A stretch of DNA of 22,782 nt. Source: a virus. Below, piece by piece: positions 4,570 through 22,141 of the stretch (its first letter is position 1; the number at the start of each line of letters is the position of its first letter). The stretch lies in the IMG/VR virus record IMGVR_UViG_3300048011_000004, positions 1 through 22,782 of that record, one strand, 5' to 3'. Both the position numbers and the translations under genes were made by a program. Below the pieces are notes generated by a model. The model saw only the letters and a program-made list of their open reading frames with translations. It had not been told where the DNA came from and searched no databases.

Positions 4570-4913
4570 TATCAGATCTTTGTGAGTGGGCAGAGTTTAA
4601 CTTTAAGCTTAGTCTACCAGATGAAAATGGTACTACGCAACGTGAACACTTAGAACAAGTAGAAAGGCAGATTGGACATAAGCCGAAAGAACTGGAACCC
4701 CCGACAGAATTTCCTACTCTTCTTTCTCATGTCTGGTCTGCCTTTATTGATTTAAACAATAGCAGAACTATGGGGTTCTCTGGCCCTAACCCGATTACTT
4801 ATAGCGAGATAAAAGCTTGGAAAGAACTCACACATACTCCATTATATCCTTGGGAAATCGAGGCTGTAAAGTTAGTAGATGTGCAATATGTAAGGGTTAT
4901 GAATAGTGGCTGA
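4177..4913 (+). CDS. tail assembly chaperone, -1 frameshift long form (gpGT-like)
   Basis: Slipping back one base at TTTTTTG (4545-4551) after codon 125 joins the short form to an open -1 frame. That frame runs from GGA at 4551 to TGA at 4911-4913, giving about 245 residues. The added 120 residues begin GLYEEIVSDLCEWAEF. They include GPNPITYSEIKAWKELT and PLYPWEIEAVKLVDVQYV, the usual ending of gpT-type chaperone extensions (a proline-framed W-E-x-E-A-I/V-K-x-x-D). In lambda the T part bridges the chaperone to the tail tube subunits. The -1 frame has no plausible start of its own, which supports frameshifting. Its stop overlaps the tape measure GTG by 8 bases. Confidence 0.82.
4528..4551 (+). 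promoter_or_regulatory. programmed -1 ribosomal frameshift site with SD-like stimulator
   Basis: The heptamer T-TTT-TTG (4545-4551) is in the correct phase with the zero-frame codons GAT TTT TTG, so it fits the X-XXY-YYZ slippage rule. A full Shine-Dalgarno-like GAGGAGG lies at 4528-4534, ending 10 bases before the heptamer. This is the spacing at which internal SD sequences are known to stimulate -1 shifts, as in E. coli dnaX. No convincing hairpin directly downstream was seen by eye. Confidence 0.75.
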
Positions 4914-6822
4914 CGTATCAATAATCATAGCAACTAATGCGGATCAGGTAAAACAAGAGTTTACTGGTCTTACTGGTTCTGTAGTTGGAGCGGCAGCACA
5001 AGCTAAAGTTTTAACTCAAACTATGCAGTTCTTAGATGCAGCTTTTAATAAAAACAGGATTGATGCTCAACAGTATAGCGCCGCCATAAAACAACTGGAT
5101 GCCGCTGAAGATAGATTATATGCTGCTATAGGTCAAACAACTGCCGCATCTAATCAACAAAGTGCCTCATTTGATAGGGCATCATCTGCTACTAAAAGAA
5201 TGTCAGGCGCTCAATCTCAAGCGGCTATAGCAGCTAAAAGATTAGCGGATGCTCAAAGACTAGCTGGAAAGAGTACCAACAAGTTTGGTATGTACACTCA
5301 ACAGGTTGGTTATCAAGTTGGTGACTTCTTTGTGCAGGTTCAATCTGGTACTGATGCCTTAGTTGCATTTGGTCAACAGGGTACTCAGCTTGCAGGTCTA
5401 CTCCCAGGGTTGGCTGGAGCTATTTTAGGTATCGGACTTGCAATATCCACTGCTCTTGGTCGTGCATACTTAGAGTCAAAGAACCTAACTATAAACTTTA
5501 AAGAGATTAAGAAGGATATGGGTGCGGCACTTGAGCCGATAAAACCTCTTATAGATGCTATAACTTCTGCTTTCTCTTCTCTAGGGGATGTGGCAAGGAA
5601 CGTAGGAACCTTTATAGCTGATAACTTTGCTAGACTTATTTCTTATGCCATAGCCTTTGGCGCTGTAATGGTTACAAAGGTAGTTGCAGGTTTTATCTTA
5701 TCTGGTAGGGCAGCTAGAAGTTTCTTTGCTTTAGTTAGGACAGGCTTAATTGCTTCAGGTATAGGTATACTGGTAGTAGGGTTAGGAGAAGTATTATATA
5801 GGTTCAACGCCTTGATTACTGCAACAGGTAGTTTTAGCGCTGCTATGCAGAAGTTAGGAAACCTGTTTGGTGGTCTGTGGGATTTTGCCATAGCTAAGAT
5901 AGATGTTTACCTTGCCCAACTACAAACTATTGGGCCAGCATTCAAAGCCTTTATGTTTGGGATTTTAAATAGTGTTCTTACAAGCATTCAAAACGGATTA
6001 AATAATACCATAAGTGCCATCAATAGAACTTTTAATACAAGTTTTGAACCTGTGAGAATAGGTGGTTTTGTAGAAGACGCTATGGTTCAAGCTCAGAAGG
6101 ATCTAGGGGAAGCTGAAAGAGCGGTGAACGATCTTAAGTCTGCTGCTGACGGATCTTGGGAATCTCTGATGGGTATGGTAAACGATCTTCTAGGTCTTAC
6201 CAATACAACGACAACGGCTTTAGATACAACTGACTGGTTTATGAATAAACTAGATGACGACACTAAGAAAGCTAATGATTCCCTTAGTAAACAAAATGAT
6301 GCGTTTAAGAAGCTAGAAGATCAAGCAAACAGATTAGCTGCACCCTTCGATGATTTCTTTATGTCTATAATAGATGGAACTACTTCAGTAACTGACTCAT
6401 TTAAGTTAATGGCCTCTGATATTATAAAACAGCTTTACAGGATATTTATAGTAGAGCAAATGGTACAGACAATTAAAGGCGGTATTATGGGTGCTTTAGC
6501 TGGGCCAGTACAAGGTCCACCCGCACCATCTTTGGACGGTGGTGGATACACAGGCTCAGGCCCAAGATCAGGTGGCTTAGATGGTAAGGGTGGCTTTATG
6601 GCTATGCTACACCCTAGAGAGACTGTCGTAGACCACACTAAAGGCCAGTCTACAGGTAATGATAATGTTGTAATTAATCAAACCTTCAGCTTTGCAGCTA
6701 ATGGTGACGAAAGTGTAAGAAAGATTATTGCACAAGAGGCACCTAAGATCTCTAAAATGACAGAACAATCAATATTGGATAGCCGTAGAAGAGGCGGTAG
6801 AATGAAAGCGGTGTTTGGATAA
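4906..6822 (+). CDS. tail tape measure protein
   Basis: This 638-residue protein should set tail length and thread the tube. Residues 30-120 are alanine/glutamine-rich helix. Residues 130-162 carry the conserved YQVGDFFVQVQSGTDALVAF motif of tape measure proteins. Three hydrophobic segments (about 163-186, 244-267, 279-299) could enter the host inner membrane during DNA delivery. The C-terminal part has a glycine-rich GGGYTGSGPRSGG followed by MLHPRETVVDH, an ending frequent in phages of Alphaproteobacteria. The GTG start (4906) is chosen because AAGGG (4892-4896) is well placed and MADVSI is a typical beginning. It overlaps the end of the frameshifted chaperone. At about 1.5 angstrom per residue the tail would be roughly 95 nm (inference). 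Confidence 0.9.
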   Translation: MADVSIIIATNADQVKQEFTGLTGSVVGAAAQAKVLTQTMQFLDAAFNKNRIDAQQYSAAIKQLDAAEDRLYAAIGQTTAASNQQSASFDRASSATKRMSGAQSQAAIAAKRLADAQRLAGKSTNKFGMYTQQVGYQVGDFFVQVQSGTDALVAFGQQGTQLAGLLPGLAGAILGIGLAISTALGRAYLESKNLTINFKEIKKDMGAALEPIKPLIDAITSAFSSLGDVARNVGTFIADNFARLISYAIAFGAVMVTKVVAGFILSGRAARSFFALVRTGLIASGIGILVVGLGEVLYRFNALITATGSFSAAMQKLGNLFGGLWDFAIAKIDVYLAQLQTIGPAFKAFMFGILNSVLTSIQNGLNNTISAINRTFNTSFEPVRIGGFVEDAMVQAQKDLGEAERAVNDLKSAADGSWESLMGMVNDLLGLTNTTTTALDTTDWFMNKLDDDTKKANDSLSKQNDAFKKLEDQANRLAAPFDDFFMSIIDGTTSVTDSFKLMASDIIKQLYRIFIVEQMVQTIKGGIMGALAGPVQGPPAPSLDGGGYTGSGPRSGGLDGKGGFMAMLHPRETVVDHTKGQSTGNDNVVINQTFSFAANGDESVRKIIAQEAPKISKMTEQSILDSRRRGGRMKAVFG

Positions 6823-7439
6823 TGGCTATATCGTATCCCTTAGAGTTACCTACAACAATAGGCATTGCTTCGATTGAGCTTCGTACAGTTAATGCTAATG
6901 CAACTTCTCAATCACCATTTACTTACAAGCAGCAAATACTTTCCTACGGGGGTCAAAGGTTTGAAGCCTCAGTAACTATACCACCTGTAAAGAGAGATCT
7001 AGCAGCAGCTTGGAAAGCTTCTCTGGTAAGTCTTAAAGGATCTTTAGGGACATTCTTACTGGGAGATCCAGACTATCCATTTCCACGGGGTACTCTAAGG
7101 TCTACTTCAGCACAACAGTTTGCTACGGTATCAGGAAACGCTGGTGATACCTTTTTCACAATTACTATGACCGACCAAACAGACACACTATTAGCTGGTG
7201 ACTACATACAAGTTGGTCAAGCCTCAACTGCAAGATTATATCAGGTGCTGGAAGATCGCACTGGTACTGGTGAAGTTGAGATATTTCCAAATCTAAGGTT
7301 AGACTACACAAACGAGGTTGTGGGAACCAATAACACAAAAGGTTTGTTCAGACTAAAAGACAACACAACATCATGGTCAATAGACAATGCATCTATCTAC
7401 GGCATTTCCTTTGAGGCCGTTGAAGCAATTACGGGGTAA
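6822..7439 (+). CDS. minor tail protein, distal-tail (Dit-like) candidate
   Basis: The 205-residue product occupies the distal-tail position directly after the tape measure, with a TAATG overlap. Its central motif, an aromatic/basic segment RDLAAAWKASLVSLKGSLGTF followed by LLGDPDYPFPRG, is recurrent in phage tail-tip proteins. The remainder is beta-rich. A later SGNAGDTFFTITMTDQTDTL...GDYIQVG segment resembles a small beta domain that may contact the fibre. The role in joining tube to tip is inferred from position and motif. A hub component is the alternative. Confidence 0.6.
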   Translation: MAISYPLELPTTIGIASIELRTVNANATSQSPFTYKQQILSYGGQRFEASVTIPPVKRDLAAAWKASLVSLKGSLGTFLLGDPDYPFPRGTLRSTSAQQFATVSGNAGDTFFTITMTDQTDTLLAGDYIQVGQASTARLYQVLEDRTGTGEVEIFPNLRLDYTNEVVGTNNTKGLFRLKDNTTSWSIDNASIYGISFEAVEAITG

Positions 7440-7442
7440 AAC

Positions 7443-10346
7443 ATGGCTGATCGTAAGATATCAGAACTTACAAATTTAACAGGCGCTAATCTGGCTGATG
7501 ATGATGAATTTGCGCTGGTAGATACAAGCGCAGACGAAACTAAAGCGATTACCTTTGGTGAGTTTAAGACTGCCCTAGATACGGCCACTGGCTTTGTCAG
7601 GATCACTGGCGATACCATGACGGGCAACTTGACAGTTCCTAATGTAGTAGTTTCTGGAAATGTTGATGGTCGGGATGTTTCTGCGGATGGCACTAAGCTA
7701 GATGGCATTGAGGCTGGTGCAGACGTTACAGACGCAACCAATGTAACAGCCGCTGGCGCATTGATGGACAGTGAGCTTGCAAACTTAGCCGCAGTTAAAG
7801 CAATCAACCAAGGCTTGTCTACGAGCGACAGCCCTTCCTTTGATGCTGTTACGGTTGGAGGTACGGGTGATCCTTCTTCAGAAATGACAATTTTATCATC
7901 TATAGGTGGCACAAGTGAACTTAGATTAGGTGATACTGATGCTGATGCTGGATCAATAAAATATTTCAATTCAAACGATCAACTTGTTCTGAGGGCTGCT
8001 GCTGCGACTAGGGCGGTTTTTAGTTCAACAGGTGTAGGCATTACAGGCAAAACCACCACAGACGAACTAGACCTTAACGCAATCGCAGCCACCATATCCG
8101 ACACAGCCGTAGACATCTTTGTGTACGACACCCGCAAGGATAGCGATGGCGGTGCATGGCGTAAGCGCACACAGCATACTAGCTGGTACAATGAAACACT
8201 GAACACTAGCACCCGTGGTAGCCGTAAGGAGTTTCCTGCGGTTGCTGTTATTGTTACTGAGTCTAACAAAGTTACTATCTACGACGGTGACAATCCTGAT
8301 ATGCCTATGTGGATGGTATTTGATGGCGGCTCTCGTGCTGATATGATTTATGGTTTGTCTGACAACAGTCAACAAGCTACAAAAATGCTTAATGGTTTAC
8401 TAGTTTCAGTAGGCAATGATTCTGGAGGACAAAGCGGTACATTTCCTATTAGTTTCATTACTGACAACGGGTATTTTTTAAGTGACGCTAGTAGCAGTCC
8501 TTATAAGTATAACGGAAATATTGAACAGAGAAATGATGGTTTAAATGTATCTACAGGAGACTCAGGTAACTACGGTATAACGATCAGTCGCTACGTCAAC
8601 GATGTAGCCATGACCGTTCTCCCCAACGCCCCGATTGATGCTGCTACAGGATTGCCTGTGCCGACTATTGCGGTGGCTACTGATGGTGGGGTTTCTGTTA
8701 TCAAGGATGATGGGACTGTTGTTGATATTACGACTACCTCTGGGGCCAGTGGATGGGGCAAGAGTAACTTTGTAGCCTTTAGAAGTGATAATAAAATAGT
8801 AAGCACTGTTGGATATTCTTCAAGTGATACCTCTGACCGATATGTTCACATTAACACCATTCCAAGTGCAGACTTTTCTTTAGGGAATGGCCTCGACAGT
8901 GTACCATCTGATGGATACCACGGGGCAACTGGTGGTGATGTTGCTATTGTTTCTGTATTTGACGAAGGTAATGGCAGAGATATTACTTCAATAACAGCGG
9001 AGCATTTCGGACAAGCCTCTGGGTTGAGCCAAGTTGCTTATGCTCCGATTGATACTGCCCCTGATCTTACATCTATGGTTGCCTACACTACATCTGATTA
9101 TGCCACAGGCTGGATGAACGGCGACATCAAACTCGCCACCTTGTCCGACACCGATGATACTGACGTTACTGGCAGTAACCTTATCGTCAATGGTGACTTC
9201 AGTTCAAACTCAGATTGGGTTTTAACCAGCATTTATTCAATAGGCAGTGGTGTACTAACTAGCCAAAGTTCTAGTTCAGGTGTTTTAAGACCTAGCGTTA
9301 ATGTAGTTCCAGTTGTAGGTAAAACCTATGTCTTGACTTTTGATATAACCGCCCATTCTGCGGGTACTATATATGTGAACTTTGGGCATATCTGGGTTGC
9401 TTCTGGATATCATGCAGCGGGTGTTGGTTCAAAATCCTTTACATTTACCCCTACTAGCACGGCTGAAAACTTCTCTTTCTACACCGCTGCCTTTGGTGGT
9501 TCTATAGATAACGTAGTATTACGAGAAGCAGAGCCAGACCGCAGTGTGAACGGCAACGGTCTACAGGTTTTCGGCACTGTGACCAAAAACCCTGTGGCTA
9601 CTGGTGCTGATTTGGTGGCGTATAGTGGGTTTAGTAGCAGCAACTATCTGCGTCAGCCTTATAACAGTGACTTGGACTTTGGCACTGGAGATTTCACTTA
9701 CTCTTTTTGGGCTTCGGCTCCATCTAGTGGAACTGATAGATTATGGTTGACCCACGGTAAATACAATACAGCAAAAAGCGGTTTAAACATTCTCCAGTAT
9801 AACTCAGGGGGGTCAGGCGATGAGGCTCATTTTTATGTTGGTAATGCGGGGGCGGGTTATGTTGTCGTCACTGGAATTGAAGGTACGGGTCTGCATAATT
9901 GGGCTGTGGTACGAAAAAGCGGAACCTTAGAAGTTTATCGTGACGGTAAGCTGGCAGGTTCTGTCGCAAATACCAATGACATAAATCTTTCAAACGAAGC
10001 AATAAAAGACTTATATGTTGGCGTAGGACTTTCTGGAAGTAGCGTATATAACTACGGTGCTGGCACATTAGCCCTTCTCCGCATCTCAGCCACAGCCCCA
10101 TCCCCAGAACAGATTGCTAAAATCTACGAGGACGAGAAGTTCCTATTCCAAGATGGCGCACAAGCAACCCTCTACGGCTCGTCTGATGCGGTAACAGCTT
10201 TGGCCTACGACGATAGCACAGAGTTGCTTCATGTCGGTACAAGCGCAGGACGTTCAGTCTTCCAAGGATTACGACGAGTAGACAACACAACAACCGCTGT
10301 CGGTGCTGCAATCAGTGCATCTAACGGCCTAGTGGCTGACGAATAA
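7443..10346 (+). CDS. large tail fibre / receptor-binding protein with CBM-like and LamG-like domains
   Basis: The 967-residue protein is modular. Residues 1-60 are a virion-anchor-like region beginning MADRKISELTNLTGANLADD. Residues 73-130 hold the DGRDVSADGTKLDGIEAGAD module seen in many marine phage fibres. Residues 211-570 form a beta-rich, possibly propeller-like region (with PNAPIDAATGLPVPTIAV and GGVSVIKDDGTVVDIT). Residues 576-695 look like a carbohydrate-binding jelly roll (NLIVNGDFSSNSDW...SIDNVVL). Residues 700-895 resemble a laminin-G/concanavalin fold (LDFGTGDFTYSFWASAP, LEVYRDGKLAGSV). The ending SPEQIAKIYEDEKFLF is common in such fibres. Binding to cell-surface glycans is the likely role. 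The exact receptor cannot be read from the sequence. Confidence 0.8.
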   Translation: MADRKISELTNLTGANLADDDEFALVDTSADETKAITFGEFKTALDTATGFVRITGDTMTGNLTVPNVVVSGNVDGRDVSADGTKLDGIEAGADVTDATNVTAAGALMDSELANLAAVKAINQGLSTSDSPSFDAVTVGGTGDPSSEMTILSSIGGTSELRLGDTDADAGSIKYFNSNDQLVLRAAAATRAVFSSTGVGITGKTTTDELDLNAIAATISDTAVDIFVYDTRKDSDGGAWRKRTQHTSWYNETLNTSTRGSRKEFPAVAVIVTESNKVTIYDGDNPDMPMWMVFDGGSRADMIYGLSDNSQQATKMLNGLLVSVGNDSGGQSGTFPISFITDNGYFLSDASSSPYKYNGNIEQRNDGLNVSTGDSGNYGITISRYVNDVAMTVLPNAPIDAATGLPVPTIAVATDGGVSVIKDDGTVVDITTTSGASGWGKSNFVAFRSDNKIVSTVGYSSSDTSDRYVHINTIPSADFSLGNGLDSVPSDGYHGATGGDVAIVSVFDEGNGRDITSITAEHFGQASGLSQVAYAPIDTAPDLTSMVAYTTSDYATGWMNGDIKLATLSDTDDTDVTGSNLIVNGDFSSNSDWVLTSIYSIGSGVLTSQSSSSGVLRPSVNVVPVVGKTYVLTFDITAHSAGTIYVNFGHIWVASGYHAAGVGSKSFTFTPTSTAENFSFYTAAFGGSIDNVVLREAEPDRSVNGNGLQVFGTVTKNPVATGADLVAYSGFSSSNYLRQPYNSDLDFGTGDFTYSFWASAPSSGTDRLWLTHGKYNTAKSGLNILQYNSGGSGDEAHFYVGNAGAGYVVVTGIEGTGLHNWAVVRKSGTLEVYRDGKLAGSVANTNDINLSNEAIKDLYVGVGLSGSSVYNYGAGTLALLRISATAPSPEQIAKIYEDEKFLFQDGAQATLYGSSDAVTALAYDDSTELLHVGTSAGRSVFQGLRRVDNTTTAVGAAISASNGLVADE

Positions 10347-10356
10347 GGAGTGACAG

Positions 10357-10866
10357 ATGACAGTCAACGTATCTAAGCCAGTAGTAAACGTAAGAGAAAA
10401 ACTGGCAGAACTAGATTACGCAAGATTGCCTTACCAAAAGGCACCTGCGGGGAGTATAATCCAAGTAGATCATTACAAGCGGGATGGCAACGGCAACACC
10501 ATCTCAACAACAAGTCAATCTTATGTTGATAGTGGTATCAGTTTAACCTTTTACCCTAAGTTTGCTAATTCTAAACTTCTGGTTCGTGTTTTTGCGCAAG
10601 TATATGTAAGTGCAAATAATCACGGTAAAATAGCGATTTACAGGGATGACACAGATGAATTGGTGCAAACATCAGTTCATTGGGATGGTTCTTCAACTAA
10701 TCAAGGTGCCTCACAGGGAATGATAGAGGCTCTTGATGATGCGGGAACTACTGAGGCCGTTAAGTATAGCATATACTTTTTAATAAAGGGTTCTTCTGGG
10801 CAAGTGGTTATCAACGGCGAAAGTTACTCTGACGCAGGTATTACTGTCATGGAGATTGCACAATGA
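10357..10866 (+). CDS. fibre-associated beta protein, unknown
   Basis: The 169-residue product follows the large fibre gene with AAGGAG upstream. An N-terminal stretch (MTVNVSKPVVNVREKLAELD) is followed by a jelly-roll-like beta domain (SIIQVDHYKRDGNGNT, ISLTFYPKFANSKLLVRVFA, KIAIYRDDTDELV) ending in YSDAGITVMEIAQ. Similar short proteins are found in marine phage fibre loci. A fibre tip, trimer cap or decoration role is inferred. It overlaps the next gene as ATGA. Confidence 0.6.
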   Translation: MTVNVSKPVVNVREKLAELDYARLPYQKAPAGSIIQVDHYKRDGNGNTISTTSQSYVDSGISLTFYPKFANSKLLVRVFAQVYVSANNHGKIAIYRDDTDELVQTSVHWDGSSTNQGASQGMIEALDDAGTTEAVKYSIYFLIKGSSGQVVINGESYSDAGITVMEIAQ

Positions 10867-11543
10867 TTAAACTACAAGCTATACAATCTTTAAGACCAAA
10901 CGCACAGTTTACGCTTAGAGGCGATGTTCTTGAATGGCACGATACCGAAGCAGTACAGCCAACTGACTTAGAAATACAAGCTGAGATAGCTAAACAGAAC
11001 TATCTTGAAGAAGTTCGTCAGTATCAAAAAGACCGTGAGTATCCTCCAATCGCAGACCAACTAGACCAGATATACCATGAGGGTATTGAAGCATGGAAAG
11101 CAACTATTGATGCTGTGAAAGCGGCTCACCCAAAAGTAGAGCCTGTTGAGGCCGATCAGCAAGCTGCTATTGATAGCCATGTAGCGCAATACATCTTCAA
11201 CCAACAGCTTGCAGACTACCGTGTAGCAGTAGCCCGACTAGCACAATACATCGTTGCAGATGGTCGTGAAGAAGTACGGGAAATGCAGCCTACAGGTGAA
11301 CAGGTCTGGAACGAAGAAACAATGGAAATGGAAGATGTGATGATGGAAGTCGTTACAGTCACAGCCATTGAACCTGTCGAAGCCACGGTTGAACGGACTG
11401 TGTATCCTGATGATCCAATGAGTGATGCAGAGCCTACTGTAGAAACAATCGAAAACCCGTTGATCACCAAAGACAACGAAGAACGTGCAGCGGCTCAAGC
11501 TGTTGTCGATGCTACACCACAACCAGTTAAGGATGCTGCATAA
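10863..11543 (+). CDS. tail-fibre-locus protein, possible fibre assembly factor
   Basis: The 226-residue acidic protein has a helical middle containing REYPPIADQLDQIYHEGIEA...TIDAVKAAHPK. This is the Y-P-x-I-x-D-Q-L-D...W...I-x-x-V-K-x-x-(Y/H)-P-K pattern found in tail-fibre assembly/XkdW-like proteins. The N-terminus (FTLRGDVLEWHDTEAVQPTD) is also usual in that group. Residues 135-205 are rich in E, V, T and M (EETMEMEDVMMEVVTVT) and look low-complexity. The ATGA overlap with the previous gene suggests coupled expression with the fibre. Chaperone versus virion component cannot be decided here. Confidence 0.6.
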   Translation: MIKLQAIQSLRPNAQFTLRGDVLEWHDTEAVQPTDLEIQAEIAKQNYLEEVRQYQKDREYPPIADQLDQIYHEGIEAWKATIDAVKAAHPKVEPVEADQQAAIDSHVAQYIFNQQLADYRVAVARLAQYIVADGREEVREMQPTGEQVWNEETMEMEDVMMEVVTVTAIEPVEATVERTVYPDDPMSDAEPTVETIENPLITKDNEERAAAQAVVDATPQPVKDAA

Positions 11544-12221
11544 ATGTCCCGTGACCTGTCTACTGGTGTAACCGTTAATCTTGAAGATGATGTTATCTTC
11601 CCGTTCTTTGCGGTGGAGCTTAACTTTGATGATGGTACATTTGAAGCGGCAGATGGCAACGTCTACAACCGCATTCTGCGCCTTTGGACAGGTCAAGGCA
11701 CTCTGGTTTATGAAGGTAATGAGTATTTTGGTACAGGTAACTTACTAGATGTATCTCTTATCGAAGAAACCACAGAAATAGCTGCTAAGGGTGCTACTCT
11801 TACTTTGAGCAGTGTACCTAGCGAAGTCATATCTTTGGCGCTCACGGAGCAATATCAGGGGCGCACATGCAAGATATTCTTTGGTCTATTCCAAGAGGGG
11901 CGGCTGGAAGATCAAACAAGTGCAGAGAATGCCCCAGCTTATATCTTGTTGCAGACTGGTGGTAGAATTATCTTAGAGGCTAACAAGACCAGCCTTACAG
12001 AGATCTTCACTGGTTACATGGATCAAATGAGCATCAATGAATCAGCAGATACAAGCACTTTACAACTTACTGCTGAGAATAAGCTTATTGATTTAGAAAG
12101 ACCTAGGGTTGGCAGATTTACCTCAGAGTACCAGAAGTCAATATACCCTGATGATAAGGGTTTTGATTTCGTAGAGAGTATGCAAGAGCAAAAGATAGTC
12201 TGGGGAAGAGCAGGTGTCTAG
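11544..12221 (+). CDS. tail hub-like protein (DUF2163/GTA hub type candidate)
   Basis: The 225-residue protein starts MSRDLSTGVTVNLEDDVIFPFFAVEL and is mainly beta. Motifs include TLTLSSVPSEVISLALTEQY, TEIFTGYMDQMSINESADTS and a C-terminal YPDDKGFDFVESMQEQKIVW. Its layout of a membrane-proximal beta barrel plus a short C-terminal part, and its place before the J-like tip gene, resemble the hub proteins of Rhodobacter GTA and of siphophages. The family assignment is tentative. Its last 8 bases overlap the GTG of the acetyltransferase gene. Confidence 0.55.
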   Translation: MSRDLSTGVTVNLEDDVIFPFFAVELNFDDGTFEAADGNVYNRILRLWTGQGTLVYEGNEYFGTGNLLDVSLIEETTEIAAKGATLTLSSVPSEVISLALTEQYQGRTCKIFFGLFQEGRLEDQTSAENAPAYILLQTGGRIILEANKTSLTEIFTGYMDQMSINESADTSTLQLTAENKLIDLERPRVGRFTSEYQKSIYPDDKGFDFVESMQEQKIVWGRAGV

Positions 12222-12663
12222 CTACCAACAAGAGTTTATTAGCTCTGTTAAGAATGACATCACAGACTTGTTACAGAAAGATTGGTCTGAGATAGAACAC
12301 AGAAAAGACATAAGACCCTTTAATCCTGACTGGGATGCTTATGAAGCCTTAGAGCAAGCTAACATGCTTAAGATCTTTACTGTAAGAGAAAACGACAGAC
12401 TTATAGGATACCACGTAAATATTGTAGCTCCTAGTCTTCATAGTAAAGGTGTATCTCAAGCCTCTGCAGATGTAGTTTACTTACACCCTGACTATCGTAA
12501 GGGGTTTACAGGTTACAAGCTATTTAAGTTTGCAGAGAAGTGTCTGAAAGAAGATGGTGTAAACATATTGCACTTAACAGCAACTGAATTAAATCCGATA
12601 GGACCGTTAATGTCAAAGCTACAGTATGACAAAATAGAAACTAAGTACGAGAAGGTTCTGTAA
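12214..12663 (+). CDS. GNAT-family N-acetyltransferase
   Basis: The 149-residue protein has the GNAT order. Strands LKIFTVRENDRLIGYHVNIV (52-71) and SADVVYLHPDYRKG (84-97) are followed by an acetyl-CoA pyrophosphate-loop candidate R95-K-G-F-T-G100, an amphipathic helix (YKLFKFAEKCLKEDG) and a late strand VNILHLTAT. The loop is a variant of the usual (Q/R)xxGx(G/A). The substrate is unknown. The GTG start at 12214 overlaps the previous gene by 8 bases, and the stop overlaps the J-like gene as TAATG, so it is fixed within the tail-tip operon. An NlpC/P60 peptidase often stands at this place in comparable phages and is absent here. Confidence 0.75.
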   Translation: MSSYQQEFISSVKNDITDLLQKDWSEIEHRKDIRPFNPDWDAYEALEQANMLKIFTVRENDRLIGYHVNIVAPSLHSKGVSQASADVVYLHPDYRKGFTGYKLFKFAEKCLKEDGVNILHLTATELNPIGPLMSKLQYDKIETKYEKVL

Positions 12664-15383
12664 TGGCTGTTACAGTTGGTGCATTTCTATTAGGTCAAAC
12701 AGTTGCCACTGCTGGCGCTGCATACTTTGTTCAATACGCTGTAGGTTACTTAGCTACAACTGCTCTGACAAGTGTGGCACTTAGTGGTCTTATGCCCAAA
12801 CCAGATATTCCTAACCTTTCTACAGGTGCTAATGCAGCTAACAGGGGTTATCAGATATCTACTAGATCTGCTGCAGCTAACCATCAGATTATTTATGGTC
12901 AAACTAAAGTAGGTGGGTCTATTGTTTTTGATGCTGTATCAGGTGTCAATAATAAGGTCTTACACAGAGTAATAGCTTTCTCTGGACATGAGATCGAAGA
13001 GTTCAGTACGTTCTACTTCAATGAAGAGTTCCTTACTCTTACTACAGACACTGATAGTAACGGTGATACTTACTACAAACCAACTTTAGCTACAAATAAG
13101 ACGGGTGCCGTTAGCACTAGGTATAATGATTATGTTCGTATATACCAGCGTAAAGGTGGTACAGAAAATAATACATCAATCCCAGCTTTAATTAGTGCTG
13201 GTGTAAACTGGACACAAGACCATAAGCTACAGGGAACAGCTTATGTCTATATTAGATTAGAGTTTGAAGCTGATGCCTTCCCTAATGGTGTGCCTGATAT
13301 AAGCTGTATTATCAAAGGTAAGAAAGTCTATGACCCCAGATCTTCTGCTACAGCTTGGTCAGACAACCCTGCTCTTTGTATAAGAGATTACCTCACAAGC
13401 TCTACTTATGGTCTAGGAGAGGTCGCAGCTTCTATAGATGACTCCAAAGTTATTATAGCTGCTGATGTATGTGATTATAAGAATTACGATGTAAATAATG
13501 CAGATCCAGCATCCACTAAAACTGGTGGCGTTAGATTTACTATGGATGGCGCATTTACTACTGCAGTTACTCCTTACAGCCATATGATGGATCTGTTGAC
13601 TTCTATGGGTGGTGTCCTTTGGTACGGTCAGGGTAAGTGGCGTATGAAAGCTGCACACTATGTAGAACCCACTGTCACGTTTACTGAAGATGACCTAAGA
13701 GCTAATATACAGATCTCTACTCGTCACAGCCGTAGAGATAACTTTAATACAGTCAAGGGTGTATTTAGAGGCCCTGTCACAGACTTCCAACCTACAGATT
13801 ATGCAGAAGTTACGAACACAGTCTTTAGACAAGCTGATAACAACCAGATAAGCACTTATGATTTAGACTTACCGTTCACTGATAGCTTTGATATAGCCAG
13901 AAGAATTGCTTTAATAACCCTAGAGAGAAATAGACAACAACTTACTGTACAAGCCTCTTTTGGTATGAGAGCTTTCCAAATACAAGTTGGAGATATTGTA
14001 AAGCTAACTATGTCTCGTTTTGGTTGGACTAATAAAGAGTTTGAGGTTATTCAATGGTCTTTTGGTTTACAGGAAGACAATGATCTAAGGTGTGATTTAA
14101 TTCTACGTGAGATATCTGAGAGTGTCTTTGATGATATTTCTGATGGTATCGTCTACGAGAGAGATAACACAACACTCCTAAGCCCGTTTGAAGTACCACC
14201 AGTAGCTATATCTACCTCTAATGAATACGGCGGTGTCTTTAAGGTTGTAAGTGAAAAGTTACTCAGAGAGTTGCAGCTTGAAGTAACAGCAGCAGATGCG
14301 TCTAGAATCGACAGAGTAGAGGTTCAGTATAGGCCGACTGGTACAGCAGATTACCTCAATATAGGTACAGGCGGTCTAGGTCGATATACTGTACCTGATC
14401 TTGATGAAGGTAACTATGATGCTAGAGCTAGAGGTGTCAACACTTTTGGTGTTAAAGGTGAATTTAGCTACTTACTCAATTTTCTACTGGCTCCCTTAGA
14501 CACTCCCCCATCAGATGTTGATAGTAATACCTTTATCTTTGAAGTTTCTGCTGGAACCCTGTTCTTAGAGTGGGAACCCATAAGTGATTTAGATCTTTCT
14601 TACTACCAAATTAAGTACTCTTCAGATGCTACTACATCCTCTACATCAGATGCTAATGCTCTTTGGGGTGGTAACTCTAACATAGCTATTAAGAGAGTTG
14701 CTAGACCTGCTACATTCGCTACAGTGCCAGCTAGGTCAGGCACATTCTTAATCAGGGCATACGATAAAGCTGGTAACCCTTCCGATAATGTAGGGTTTGT
14801 TGTTGTCCCTGCTACTGCCCTGCCGACTTTGGGTGTATCTGTAACGCAGACTGAAAGCGGCTCTCATACATTTGCTGGTAATACCGGCATCAGCAACACC
14901 AACATCACTGTTGATACCTCGCCAAACCCAGATGAGTTACGCATTAACGACACTTCTGCTGCTACGCCAAGCGGTATTTACTACTTTGGTGGCAATCTAT
15001 CAGGTTCACAAACTGCCGACAATGGCGCAGATTATATTGATCTAGGTTCAAGCAGAACAGCTACTACGACAGGAAGTGCAACCTTCGCACGACACATTGA
15101 TTACTCTTCTGTCTTTGATAATATTCCCCAGAATTGGGATACATGGCCCGACACCTTTGATGACTGGACAAATGAAGATGCAGCCTTTGGTGACTTCGCT
15201 ACTGCAGTCCAAGTTAGGGCTACACCAGATGACCCCTCTTCCTCGCCAACTTGGGGGGCTTGGGAAACCGCCATTGGTCAGCAAGTGGTTGGCAGAGGCT
15301 TCCAATTTAGGGTAAACTTAAACGCAACCAATAGCGAAGTATCACCAGCAATCACAGTCCTTTCAGCAACAGTAGGTTACTAA
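12663..15383 (+). CDS. J-like tail tip / host specificity protein
   Basis: The 906-residue protein is the likely tail-tip attachment protein. Residues 1-46 are hydrophobic and small-residue rich (GAFLLGQTVATAGAA...TALTSVALSGLM). Residues 75-255 include IIYGQTKVGG and KGKKVYDPR...WSDNPALCIRDYL, hallmarks of lambda J / Phage-tail_3 proteins. A further hub-like part follows (DIARRIALITLERNRQQLTV, VGDIVKLTM). Two fibronectin-III-like units occupy about residues 530-705. The C-terminal 200 residues are beta-rich (FDNIPQNWDTWPDTFDDWTN) and should project toward the receptor. It is linked by TAATG overlaps to genes on both sides. Confidence 0.85.
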   Translation: MAVTVGAFLLGQTVATAGAAYFVQYAVGYLATTALTSVALSGLMPKPDIPNLSTGANAANRGYQISTRSAAANHQIIYGQTKVGGSIVFDAVSGVNNKVLHRVIAFSGHEIEEFSTFYFNEEFLTLTTDTDSNGDTYYKPTLATNKTGAVSTRYNDYVRIYQRKGGTENNTSIPALISAGVNWTQDHKLQGTAYVYIRLEFEADAFPNGVPDISCIIKGKKVYDPRSSATAWSDNPALCIRDYLTSSTYGLGEVAASIDDSKVIIAADVCDYKNYDVNNADPASTKTGGVRFTMDGAFTTAVTPYSHMMDLLTSMGGVLWYGQGKWRMKAAHYVEPTVTFTEDDLRANIQISTRHSRRDNFNTVKGVFRGPVTDFQPTDYAEVTNTVFRQADNNQISTYDLDLPFTDSFDIARRIALITLERNRQQLTVQASFGMRAFQIQVGDIVKLTMSRFGWTNKEFEVIQWSFGLQEDNDLRCDLILREISESVFDDISDGIVYERDNTTLLSPFEVPPVAISTSNEYGGVFKVVSEKLLRELQLEVTAADASRIDRVEVQYRPTGTADYLNIGTGGLGRYTVPDLDEGNYDARARGVNTFGVKGEFSYLLNFLLAPLDTPPSDVDSNTFIFEVSAGTLFLEWEPISDLDLSYYQIKYSSDATTSSTSDANALWGGNSNIAIKRVARPATFATVPARSGTFLIRAYDKAGNPSDNVGFVVVPATALPTLGVSVTQTESGSHTFAGNTGISNTNITVDTSPNPDELRINDTSAATPSGIYYFGGNLSGSQTADNGADYIDLGSSRTATTTGSATFARHIDYSSVFDNIPQNWDTWPDTFDDWTNEDAAFGDFATAVQVRATPDDPSSSPTWGAWETAIGQQVVGRGFQFRVNLNATNSEVSPAITVLSATVGY

Positions 15384-17041: not shown

Positions 17042-17422
17042 ATGGGATATAAACTAGGAACACGTAGCTTACAGAACTTGTCAGGCGTTCACCCTGATAT
17101 GCAAGCTGTAGTTAAGAAGGCAATAGAGATCACTGAAGTAGACTTCACAGTTATCGAAGGTATACGTCATATTGATCGTCAGAGACAGTTACTCAAAGAG
17201 GGTAAGTCAACTACCCTTAACTCAAGACACATCACAGGTCATGCTGTAGACATGGTTCCTTGGCCTGTAGATTGGGAAGACTTAGATAGGTTTGAAACTA
17301 TGGCTGAAGCCATGAAGGATGCAGCAGAAGAGCTTGACATTTCCATCGTATGGGGTGGTGACTGGAAGAGCTTCTATGATGCACCTCACTTTGAACTTGA
17401 TCGTAAAGTCTACCCAGCATGA
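17042..17422 (+). CDS. endolysin, M15-type L-alanyl-D-glutamate peptidase
   Basis: The 126-residue enzyme should cleave peptide cross-bridges of peptidoglycan at the end of infection. It is a compact single-domain member of the VanY/T5-endolysin group. The zinc-binding motif SRHITGHAVD gives H63 and D70. The second motif DAPHFEL gives a catalytic-type D113 and third ligand H116, with the same three-residue spacing as the known D-x-x-H of T5 endolysin. R45 or Q47 in the IRHIDRQRQLL helix also fits the family. No signal peptide is present, so access to the wall should depend on a holin. The ribosome binding site is AAAGGAA. Confidence 0.88.
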   Translation: MGYKLGTRSLQNLSGVHPDMQAVVKKAIEITEVDFTVIEGIRHIDRQRQLLKEGKSTTLNSRHITGHAVDMVPWPVDWEDLDRFETMAEAMKDAAEELDISIVWGGDWKSFYDAPHFELDRKVYPA

Positions 17423-19748: not shown

Positions 19749-20195
19749 TCAGACGGTCTTTACTAATTCCGCTGATGTGTATGGTATATGAAAAAATAAC
19801 TCATTCTTCCGTATGTATCTCCCCTTAGCTCCACCTAGACTTTCTTTGGTAAGTAATGTGTCCTTGATACGCCATGCTTGCTTCATGTCTTTACGGAATA
19901 CGTAGAAGTTTAGTACACCGTTCTCAGACCCATGCTTGTCTAACAGCCTCTGTTTCCTCTCAGGAATGCGTATATCCTTCCAAGTAACAGGCCAATCCCC
20001 ATCCCAAGCTACCTTAACCTCTGCCTCGTTAAAATAGGTGTATCCACCCTTCTGAGACACGACATCAACGTAGTAGTTCTCTTCTGTATTTACTATGGTA
20101 TGGCCCCTACTTTCTAGCAGGGACACAAGTGCTTCTTTTGCAGGGCCATCATAAGCTTCGTATAAAGCCCTGCTAAACTTCTTTCTTACTGTCAT
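19749..20195 (-). CDS. putative PD-(D/E)XK nuclease
   Basis: The 148-residue protein fits a small restriction-endonuclease-like fold. A helix (DGPAKEALVSLLESRGHTIV) leads into strand YYVDVVSQ with D44. This is followed by a strand carrying E59-V-K61 (NEAEVKVAWDGDWP), giving the D...ExK catalytic arrangement. A late strand NFYVFRKDMKQAW completes the core. R78 and R80 in the IRIPERKQRLLDKH segment could contact DNA. It is translationally coupled to the class II RNR (ATGA overlap at 20192-20195). Host DNA breakdown to feed the RNR would be a sensible role, but a DNA-packaging or repair nuclease is possible. Family assignment is by motif only. Confidence 0.6.
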   Translation of the reverse strand: MTVRKKFSRALYEAYDGPAKEALVSLLESRGHTIVNTEENYYVDVVSQKGGYTYFNEAEVKVAWDGDWPVTWKDIRIPERKQRLLDKHGSENGVLNFYVFRKDMKQAWRIKDTLLTKESLGGAKGRYIRKNELFFHIPYTSAELVKTV

Positions 20196-22141
20196 GTTAT
20201 GTCCACCATCTCACATACGTCACCAGTACATGCCATTGTTTGCATACCAGAGGTATTGTCTTCTTTTTCGTAGTCTGATAACTTTGTCCAGTCAATATCT
20301 GTCGGCATCTGAGCAAGCAAATCCTCATAGCTTGGGGTCACTACGTACTCTTCTCCATCTTCGTACCGATACCCAACAACAGGCTTATCCTTAAAGGTTT
20401 CCTGATAAGGTGCTTGTTGGTAGGTGTGATCTGAGTGTGGCAAGAAAGATACACCACTCATTTCATCAAAGTATTTGTACACAAATGCACCTACTTCCAT
20501 CCATTCTTCATCCCGCACTGAGATAGTCACGCTTGGTTTATGCTCACACCAATGCCTCTGGTACATAAGCCACATTTCTAGCTGTTCAATAGCTGTCATG
20601 TCGTTGCGTGTAATAGACCCAGAGGGTGACTGCACAGGGAAACTAAACACTGTAGTTGTGTCAGACTGCCTTTCACAAGGCTCACTGGGCACTCCCTGAT
20701 CCTTTAGGAAGTTAGTAAGTGGATCTTTGTTGTCACCACGTACTGTACGGATGTAGTATGGACTGTGACGGGCATGAATACCACTAGCACTATCTACCAA
20801 CTGAGAAACTGTACCCGATGGTTTCACGCACGTAATAGCAGCCGCCACAGGAATATTAAGACGTTCTGCCCATTCCTTGTTTGTCTCAACTGCAACACTC
20901 TTTAAATGCTCTAGGGTTTTAGCTAGCCCAACATTCTTACTTGTCATAAGAACATTATCCATTATCCCTGTGAGTGACACACCAAGCAAACGCTCCTCTT
21001 CTGTGTTGGTAGTCCACACCTTTCGCAAATACGGAAACTTGGTGAAGGTTGATTGGATAGTTCCCAAAATAGTTGCCATACGGACTTTGCGTTCCAAATC
21101 TTCAATGGTGTCCGTAGCACGTACAACAACTTCTGTAAGGTTGCAGAACTGATACGGCCTAAGTATAATTTCGCTGCACGGGTTAGTTCCGAACTCATAA
21201 TTTGCATCCCTGCGTCCATTCTTAGCTGCTTGTATCTTACTTGCCTGTCGATTAAACACGCCACGCTCACCAGACTTAGACTCCACAAGGGCAGTCCACT
21301 CACGCATGAATGTCTCCATGTCAGGCTTCTCTGTGTAGCTGACACTGTTGTTAGCTAAGGCCCGATGACCAGCAGTTTCCCACCACTGACCTGACTTAGC
21401 GTGACGCATACGATCATCTGACAGGTTAGACAAACTAATCATAGCACTACGGCGCACACCGCCAACAACTACTACTTGACCAATAAAGCACATAAGATCG
21501 TGACACTCGATACTAGACAGCTTACGTCCTTGTGCTGCTTTGAATGTCTGTACAGCGAAGTTGAATAGCTCAACCAGAGGCGCTGGACCACTAGCTCTAC
21601 CACCAAATGTTTTTAACCTTGCTCCGGCAGGTCGGATCTTAGATACATCCCACTTAGGGATTTCCCCTGCCCATAACAAAGCTAATAGTTGACGGAAGCC
21701 TTTGGCCCAGCCCTCTTTACTGTCCTTAACGTGAATAATTGTGTCGCTAACAAATAACTCAGGAACCTCTGGGAGTTTAGAAATGAACTGACGTTCAACA
21801 CTGAACCCCACCCCTGTACCACACAAGAGAATAAACATAGCTTCATCGAAGCTCTTAGGGTCATCTACAGGCAGGTAAGAACAGTTATACCCTGCTGTAT
21901 TGTCACGATCTAAAGCCTTGCCAGCAGTCATCATAGCTCGCATAGAAGGCATTACCTCTAAGTTTAAGATAGCCTGTTCTATGTTCTTGGTGTATGTGTC
22001 ATCACCAGCCTTCGGCTTGACTACACTGTCTATGTAACGACTCACAGTCTCTGACCATGTTTCTCTTGCATCACCCTTCCAACGTGCATAACGTGAAAGT
22101 GCAATAAAGTTTTGGTATGGGGTGGGGAGCATATTGTTCAT
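20192..22141 (-). CDS. nrdJ: adenosylcobalamin-dependent (class II) ribonucleotide reductase, monomeric type
   Basis: The 649-residue enzyme reduces ribonucleoside triphosphates to deoxy forms using a B12 radical. Residues match the Lactobacillus leichmannii monomeric enzyme. C87 in AGYNCSYLP is the first redox cysteine. N320-P-C322-S-E324 holds the thiyl-radical cysteine with its Asn and Glu partners. C333 follows 11 residues later, the same spacing as C408/C419 in the model enzyme. The C-terminal C638-x4-C643 (MACTGDVCEM) should accept electrons from thioredoxin. It is shorter than the bacterial enzyme (about 740 residues). The ATG overlaps the DUF1127 stop. Independence from oxygen and from a second subunit suits marine phages, but it needs host cobalamin. 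Confidence 0.93.
   Translation of the reverse strand: MNNMLPTPYQNFIALSRYARWKGDARETWSETVSRYIDSVVKPKAGDDTYTKNIEQAILNLEVMPSMRAMMTAGKALDRDNTAGYNCSYLPVDDPKSFDEAMFILLCGTGVGFSVERQFISKLPEVPELFVSDTIIHVKDSKEGWAKGFRQLLALLWAGEIPKWDVSKIRPAGARLKTFGGRASGPAPLVELFNFAVQTFKAAQGRKLSSIECHDLMCFIGQVVVVGGVRRSAMISLSNLSDDRMRHAKSGQWWETAGHRALANNSVSYTEKPDMETFMREWTALVESKSGERGVFNRQASKIQAAKNGRRDANYEFGTNPCSEIILRPYQFCNLTEVVVRATDTIEDLERKVRMATILGTIQSTFTKFPYLRKVWTTNTEEERLLGVSLTGIMDNVLMTSKNVGLAKTLEHLKSVAVETNKEWAERLNIPVAAAITCVKPSGTVSQLVDSASGIHARHSPYYIRTVRGDNKDPLTNFLKDQGVPSEPCERQSDTTTVFSFPVQSPSGSITRNDMTAIEQLEMWLMYQRHWCEHKPSVTISVRDEEWMEVGAFVYKYFDEMSGVSFLPHSDHTYQQAPYQETFKDKPVVGYRYEDGEEYVVTPSYEDLLAQMPTDIDWTKLSDYEKEDNTSGMQTMACTGDVCEMVDIT

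Follow-up and report, generated by a model that had tools for sequence, protein, structure and literature searches.

Genes at the tail-tip locus

The analysed stretch of DNA (the window) is a 22.8-kb viral record of 22,782 nucleotides, in which the genes for major head, neck, tail terminator, tail, tape measure, distal tail, hub and J proteins follow one another in that order. The host is likely a marine rhodobacterium, because the major capsid protein is 80% identical to its counterpart in Roseobacter phage CRP-6. The features of the window used in this study are the following.

4906..6822, + strand: tape measure protein, upstream of the GNAT gene
6822..7439, + strand: distal tail protein (phrog_1302), upstream of the GNAT gene
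11544..12221, + strand: hub-like tail protein (phrog_2048 tail protein), sharing 8 nt with the GNAT gene
12214..12663, + strand: gene of the GNAT-fold, predicted acetyltransferase, 149 aa, GTG start, type 5 allele
12663..15383, + strand: J-like central tail-tip protein (phrog_5616 tail fiber, phrog_31 central tail fiber J)
12663..12797, + strand: J codons 1-45, the putative substrate segment, hydrophobic, with the first charged residue not before 46
12666-12668, + strand: second codon of J, Ala, as read from the sequence
20192-22141, - strand: ribonucleotide reductase (phrog_367), on the strand opposite to the tail genes

The ORF at 12214-12663 is a stop-free frame with 149 codons' worth of protein, and several stops interrupt frame 1 on the opposite strand. 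The initial annotation had placed this gene in the tail-tip translation unit, overlapping the hub-like gene by 8 bases and the J-like gene by 1 base; both overlaps were exact in the sequence, with TAATG at the GNAT/J junction, and the hub-like and J-like labels held at the family level through the PHROG matches given above.

Three other parts of the tail region were recorded in passing. A LamG-domain protein and two more ORFs (7443-11543) separate the distal tail gene from the hub gene, which are adjacent in many relatives. A gap of about 340 bases (4570-4905), bounded by the tape measure gene and by the small ORF that follows the tail tube-like gene, could hold a frameshifted tail assembly chaperone. 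A small ORF 3ʹ of J (17042-17422) is kept in many relatives; in CRP-6, a gene annotated as an M15 peptidase lies downstream of J.

The window protein has a GNAT fold

The window protein matched the Pfam model Acetyltransf_1 (PF00583) with 21.6 bits at a cut-off of 20.7, and the PHROG acetyltransferase family phrog_1249 over residues 15-147 (E 9.2e-14). Its AlphaFold2 model was confident (pLDDT 94.2, pTM 0.88). When this model was searched against the PDB with Foldseek, 375 chains were found at E ≤ 0.001, and nearly all of the 50 shown were named acetyltransferases. Upon alignment to solved structures, Z was at least 8 in 936 of 999 aligned chains. The top Z belonged to RimI, a ribosomal-protein-alanine N-acetyltransferase (Z 16.7, rmsd 2.4, 141 residues), with many other GNATs within 1. 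A PDB profile search gave 45 matches, NAA30 and a RimI chain included. By modelled fold and Pfam match the protein is a member of the GNAT superfamily, for which acetyl transfer is the predicted activity; the identity first given to the gene was borne out by sequence models and structure prediction alike.

The NCBIfam search of the window protein returned no match, and the rimI model gave none at E ≤ 0.1. Among 49 alignment members, the general GNAT model matched 30 (best E 2e-6) and the rimI model 22, weakly (best E 0.0014). The window protein is like RimI and other N-alpha-acetyltransferases in fold, size and the proposed terminal Ala substrate, and differs from RimI by the missing NCBIfam match and by a loop variant. 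We infer that it works like RimI, a putative activity, without being a RimI family member by the NCBIfam model. With PADLOC there was a single 12-bit match for the window protein and none for that of locus L226.

In an alignment with 48 other distinct IMG/VR relatives (29-66% identity), from which identical proteins and the partial GNATs L068 and L078 had been removed, E26, G65, R95 and G97 were invariant. In a larger set of 103 loci, R95 was present in 103/103 and D or E at position 86 in 102/103, position 26 was E in 101 and D in 2, and G97 was kept in 86/103. E26, D/E86 and R95 are likely site residues. The pyrophosphate loop of GNATs follows the pattern Q/RxxGxG/A. As first annotated, the loop of the window protein is a variant: it reads R-x-G-x-x-G, the middle Gly of solved GNATs being replaced by a variable residue in the tool alignment. 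The R and the last G were kept, and a Gly stood one place earlier in 86/103 loci.

In near relatives the hub-J slot holds a GNAT gene or nothing

The gene neighbourhood was surveyed from three kinds of seed. Among the GNAT-seeded IMG/VR loci, the order hub-GNAT-J was found in 60 of 75; two loci, on cut contigs, retained GNAT plus J, and a hub-J pair was missing from 13. When loci were seeded with a J profile (the best 80 of more than 600 candidates), GNAT lay between hub and J in 46 of the 72 new readable loci; with a hub profile (likewise the best 80 of more than 600), it did so in 54 of 60. The two profiles were each built from 15 GNAT-positive loci, and the two sets share some contigs, so these counts are not independent. 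As the seeds were GNAT-positive and the candidates were cut to their top-scoring part, the survey covers near relatives. One scan of bacterial genomes gave three loci.

In the remaining 26 J-seeded and 6 hub-seeded loci the slot was empty, with 24-93 bases separating the hub stop from the J start as aligned to the profile; the start codon chosen for J in 23 of these loci lay at -1, 2 or 11 bases from that stop. No gene other than GNAT was seen in the slot of near relatives with readable hub and J. No GNAT was found elsewhere in 24 contigs without a slot GNAT, most of them short and searched without a positive control.

The 193 loci with hub and J were reduced to 139 distinct by hub, of which 128 were long enough for tree building (105 with and 23 without GNAT). 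On the hub+J tree, the presence of GNAT needed 2 changes, whereas 200 shuffles required 21.5 on average and never fewer than 17. The GNAT-negative loci formed two clades, of 15 tips (support 1.0) and 8 tips (support 0.71). The gene could have been random cargo, which the initial annotation had named as the outcome that would speak against its reading; the survey rejected this, with GNAT or no gene at the hub-J junction and those 2 changes on the tree. Comparing L109 (GNAT-negative) with L022 (GNAT-positive), the order of homologous genes was identical from the ORFs before the tape measure gene to the gene after J, GNAT excepted. Two small gene clusters between the distal tail and hub genes occurred in 29/105 and 17/105 GNAT-positive loci and in 0/23 GNAT-negative loci.

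GNAT alleles have been exchanged in place

GNAT types were studied in 103 of the 105 GNAT-positive loci. Over these 103 loci, GNAT distances correlated poorly with those of the hub at r about 0.23-0.24 and with those of J at r 0.23, compared to r 0.89 between hub and J; the raw GNAT-hub correlation exceeded all 300 permutations. The proteins fell into six types with a mean identity of 30-45% between types. These were interleaved on the hub+J tree, where 23 type changes were needed versus 41.9 for shuffled types; type 1 by itself took 10 there, and a single one on the GNAT tree.

Single pairs of loci gave the same picture. The hub proteins of L226 and L202 were 95% identical and the J proteins 91%, and their GNATs 41%. 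In six pairs with different types, DNA identity fell at the hub-GNAT junction and recovered about 100-190 bases into J, with further dips inside J in some of them. As judged from these alignments, the replaced block is the GNAT gene, usually together with the J N-terminus. Breakpoints also lie between the two, because L226 and L211 share the GNAT (windows 96-100% identical) and not the J N-terminus (windows 53-58%). GNAT did not covary beyond the J core with any of five segments (partial r -0.12 to 0.08), namely the hub (n=103), its C-terminal half (n=103), the J C-terminus (n=71), the downstream gene (n=57) and the upstream gene (n=36).

GNAT alleles are coupled to the N-terminus of J

In the 128-locus set, the N-terminal 45 or so residues of J were hypervariable and mostly uncharged beside a well-conserved core, and they seem to be exchanged apart from the rest of J.

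When divergence of the J core was accounted for, GNAT covaried with J residues 1-45 (partial r 0.48), and 0/300 permutations were as high. The last 45 aligned residues of the hub, which border GNAT on its other side, gave -0.03 as a control, a middle hub segment 0.11, and two later J segments 0.14. Among pairs with J cores more than 85% identical, J 1-45 was 76% identical when the GNAT type was the same (75 pairs) and 24% when it differed (29 pairs), while the hub end was 95% and 94% identical, respectively.

The charge of this segment differed with the presence of GNAT. The first 20 residues of J were without D, E, K or R in 102/105 GNAT-positive and 0/23 GNAT-negative loci (92/95 and 0/21, respectively, when counted as distinct N-termini), against a background of 71/827 + strand ORFs of at least 90 aa in the same loci, J ORFs included. 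Both GNAT-negative clades kept the hydrophobic stretch, with a charged leader in front of it: J charge per 10 residues ran 2.48, 1.96 and 0.04 in GNAT-negative loci, and 0.01, 0.02 and 0.05 in GNAT-positive ones. As there were only two losses, this charge switch rests on two events.

The coupling was sharpest at J residue 2, which was Val in 15/16 loci with type 1 GNATs and Ala in 53/56 with type 4. With type 5, the type of the window (n=26), it was Ala in 20, Val in 4, Gly in 1 and Pro in 1; with type 2 it was Pro in 2/2, and in the remaining 3 loci Ala. The background at residue 2 in these loci (n=599) was 39% Ala, 28% Ser and 4% Val. Pro stood at this position in 4/105 GNAT-positive loci, both type 2 alleles included; an N-terminal Pro is a poor acetylation target.

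Within types, pairwise identity at residue 2 was 0.88 for type 1, 0.90 for type 4 and 0.60 for type 5, and at residue 3 it was 0.42 and 0.40 for types 1 and 4. Later positions within these two types were mostly at 0.1-0.3, with peaks of 0.51 (residue 5) and 0.66 (residue 9) for type 1 and of up to 0.43 for type 4. When loci shared the GNAT type and their J cores were less than 60% identical, residue 2 was common to 88% of 784 pairs, and positions 6-40 were 15% identical. When J cores were more than 80% identical, residue 2 was common to 91% of 127 same-type pairs and to 12% of 84 different-type pairs; for type 1 versus type 4 it was 0/64, which follows from the type counts. Mapped on the hub+J tree, residue 2 needed 20 changes; with the J tree it needed 18, and with the GNAT tree 11, for which shuffling gave 25.6. 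Physical linkage contributes to this coupling as well, since only a few bases separate codon 2 of J from the end of the GNAT gene. Such retention of codon 2 while codon 3 decays would not be expected from plain hitchhiking.

Occupants of the slot in more distant tailed phages

A hub match was present in 109 cultured records, and the slot was read in ten. A DUF6950 protein followed the hub in CRP-6, CRP-406, CRP-811, CRP-821, Loki, IMEAB3, 9g and Mae-JY04, a HlyC-family protein in Pelagibacter phage HTVC112P (E 3e-16), and a protein matching phrog_1249 (E 1.8e-10), with no Pfam match, in Paracoccus phage Pthi1. The contigs related to HTVC112P held HlyC in 65/65 readable slots (of 80 pelagiphage-type loci), those related to one of the DUF6950 phages held DUF6950 in 10/10, and Pthi1-type contigs held GNAT in 3/3. 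The slot proteins other than GNAT are located as follows.

L235:4055-4441, and 65 IMG/VR loci among L241-L319: HlyC-family (RTX toxin acyltransferase) protein, between hub and J
L230-L234, L237-L239 and L320-L329: DUF6950 proteins, after the hub

Both resemble the window GNAT in size and in their place after the hub, and belong to different Pfam families. HlyC represents a family of lysine acyltransferases in toxins. The HTVC112P protein aligned with ApxC residues 47-136 only; the catalytic His of ApxC lies before that range, and judging from the alignment the phage protein may lack it. DUF6950 is a putative peptidase family. In 12 sequences it had an invariant Cys in a WGxxDC-like motif and no His that was invariant or nearly so, and the AlphaFold2 model, made from 8 sequences, was poor (pLDDT 55). 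The initial annotation had expected a cell-wall peptidase at this place in comparable phages, which was half borne out: the cultured relatives do hold DUF6950, a putative peptidase with an invariant Cys and, in the 12 sequences, no invariant or nearly invariant His. In open-access literature nothing was found on DUF6950 with phage. Uncharged J N-termini also occurred in DUF6950 phages, which have no GNAT, and there began with Met-Pro (J N-termini viewed in 6/10 DUF6950-type loci). For the pelagiphage type, J N-termini were viewed in 13 of the 65 readable loci.

A putative N-alpha-acetyltransferase for J and the alternatives

The GNAT fold, the fixed position of the gene, its co-presence with an uncharged J N-terminus and the allele-specific coupling to J residue 2 are observations. 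From them we infer, one by one, catalysis, removal of Met, J as the substrate and a purpose for the cap. The putative role that we propose, a dedicated N-alpha-acetyltransferase for the tail-tip protein J, has in our estimate an even chance of being right. J starts with about 40 hydrophobic residues, whose sole charge would be the free alpha-amine once Met is removed. The GNAT gene overlaps that of J and is translated just ahead of it; the enzyme would pick out the Ala or Val that has become N-terminal, the choice being set by the GNAT allele, and would acetylate that residue, so that the last charge is gone. The capped segment could then be hidden inside the assembled tail tip or insert into the host envelope as DNA enters. 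Since residue 2 tracks the adjacent GNAT allele and the alpha-amine would be the only charge, acetylation of that amine would be expected. The modelled fold is in keeping with such an enzyme, as are NAA30 and RimI among the profile matches. Of the three options that the initial annotation had offered, covariation with the J N-terminus thus favours acetylation of a virion protein, with J as the candidate substrate.

Several observations count against an N-acetyltransferase: the loci with Pro-2, the mixed residues of type 5, the missing middle Gly of the loop, the lack of a rimI match for the window protein and the better match of its relatives to a general GNAT model, the uncharged Met-Pro starts of J where there is no GNAT, and the type 1 peaks at residues 5 and 9.

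The enzyme could instead be directed at the host, made late or carried in the virion, as an acetyltransferase like phage Rac, with the swaps reflecting an arms race and the tie to J reflecting linkage or translation-start context. The enzyme might also act on a host target early, another option of the initial annotation. Such a role would suit the exchange of alleles in place, with about 23 type changes on the hub+J tree, the lack of covariation with the hub, the J C-terminus and the downstream and upstream genes beyond divergence of the J core, and the absence of GNAT from two clades, which shows it to be dispensable. Rac (LUZ19 gp28) is a phage GNAT tested by experiment; its gene overlaps the first of the structural genes, and the enzyme causes cleavage of host RNAP alpha (PMC7552054). 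The overlap with a structural gene recalls the window. Its phiKMV counterpart, gp28, matched phrog_1249 weakly (E 4e-5). However, its alignment to the family of the window GNAT was unconvincing (hhalign probability 0.6%), and it differs from the window GNAT in its PHROG (phrog_3986), its place in the genome, its loop (RNTGVA, with the middle Gly) and its host target. Moreover, a host-directed enzyme leaves J residue 2 and the strict place of the gene unexplained, and an enzyme for early takeover would hardly be expected next to tail genes. We consider this reading unlikely, while granting it some weight.

A GNAT-fold chaperone or assembly factor might bind the hydrophobic J N-terminus without catalysis and keep J soluble until the tail tip is built. 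The coupling to the J N-terminus would be equally expected, the acetyl-CoA loop is altered, and the slot proteins of the sister lineages may be catalytically altered as well, in view of the lack of an invariant or nearly invariant His in the 12 DUF6950 sequences and the ApxC 47-136 alignment of the HlyC-like protein. Nevertheless, E26, D/E86 and R95 are among the most conserved GNAT positions, two clades do without the GNAT, and the coupling is sharpest at one terminal residue, as would suit an enzyme acting on the terminus more than a chaperone that covers 40 residues. A chaperone is quite unlikely in our view.

That the GNAT acetylates lysines of the hub or J, and not the N-terminus, is very improbable. 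HlyC occupies the same slot in pelagiphages, which would fit a lysine target, but 0 columns of the hub and the profile-covered first ~500 aa of J, the range of this test, were at least 85% conserved in GNAT-positive loci and at most 10% in both GNAT-negative clades; as a control, 245 pairs of GNAT-positive clades gave 0 to 6 such columns. Hub K82 fell weakly, from 72% in GNAT-positive loci to 13% and 12% in the GNAT-negative clades. Packaging and injection of the GNAT, another of the options first offered, is most improbable: the gene adjoins tail-tip genes, but a slot-type protein is absent from the virion table of 11 proteins of phiPsa17 (no gp13 homologue; PMC4517105), from the virion proteins of YA3 named in the text (PMC7326022) and from the nine gel bands of G11 (PMC10142737), all of them distant short-tailed phages, as far as the consulted parts of these papers go.

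GNATs at a comparable place in short-tailed phages

GNATs of phrog_1249 also occur in Zobellviridae and other podophages, which are short-tailed, unlike the window phage. ICP2 gp8 and VpV262 ORFS, among those scanned, fell in the same PHROG as the window GNAT, and the predicted fold of the VpV262 protein (Q8LT55) was like that of the window protein (TM 0.87). In eight records of short-tailed phages, a named tail gene lay next or next but one upstream in KZY1, ICP2, ct2os315 and VpV262, and an internal virion protein gene lay next or next but one downstream in ICP2, VpV262 and PfAn1; the remaining neighbours are unannotated. Ten IMG/VR podophage-type loci had a homologue of the ct2os315 stabilisation protein upstream (in two with one small ORF between); downstream, nine had a homologue of the next, unnamed gene of ct2os315 and one a homologue of a PfAn1 internal virion protein. 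In this survey, a wrong ORF was taken for the GNAT in L228 and L229, and no neighbours were assigned in L082, L083 and L227. All 18 downstream proteins viewed started with Met and a small residue (A, S, V or G). Over their first 20 residues 6 were uncharged, 11 had acidic residues only and 1 had a basic residue; that only 6/18 are uncharged also counts against the N-acetyltransferase reading.

Podophage GNATs at this place are already known, and those described in earlier reports include ZP6 ORF12 (PMC8515928), G11 ORF39 (PMC10142737) and YA3 ORF13 (PMC7326022). For the GNAT pc40 of SIO1/Cobavirus, a correspondence to T7 gp13 has been suggested (PMC6775973); pc40 is likened to the window GNAT from its description in print. 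G11 and the Cobaviruses have the same gene order beside T7-type internal virion genes (PMC10142737 and PMC6775973), and in T7-like phages gp14, whose gene follows the GNAT-equivalent place, has been assigned to the ejection channel (PMC4517105 and PMC10142737). The passages of PMC3765740 and PMC9960094 contained nothing decisive on prior art, and PMC10386132 made no mention of it. In open-access literature we found no proposal of an N-terminal acetyltransferase for phage tail proteins, the role newly proposed here.

It is possible, if doubtful, that two phage morphotypes carry dedicated N-alpha-acetyltransferases which cap the membrane-active N-terminus of the next-door protein, that is, J in siphophages and, in podophages, the product of the gene leading into the internal virion proteins. 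The terminal-residue specificity would be swapped as a cassette with the substrate N-terminus, and other lineages would use a HlyC-like or DUF6950 protein, a Met-Pro start or a charged leader. Should the role proposed for the window GNAT hold, a phage would encode its own maturation enzyme for a protein of the penetration device. This could partly account for J N-termini being so variable and yet uncharged, and would open a way to study the proteins encoded where T7 has gp13. The GNATs of the marine phages CRP-4/5 and CRP-901/902, which may lie at this kind of place, were taken as host-metabolism genes (PMC6918029; PMC10149686). The coupling supplies a concrete candidate substrate and residue.

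T7 gp13 (PF11090) lies between tail gene 12 and gene 14, a place comparable to that of the GNAT. No sequence relation between it and the window GNAT was detected (hhalign probability 0.1%, single sequence), and T7 gene 7, tried as a homologue too, aligned weakly (hhalign probability 11-18%). The T7 gene 7 'host range' protein (L087:131-532) nevertheless showed a weak, repeated likeness to the GNAT family, and several GNATs matched phrog_2746 (E 0.004-0.04).
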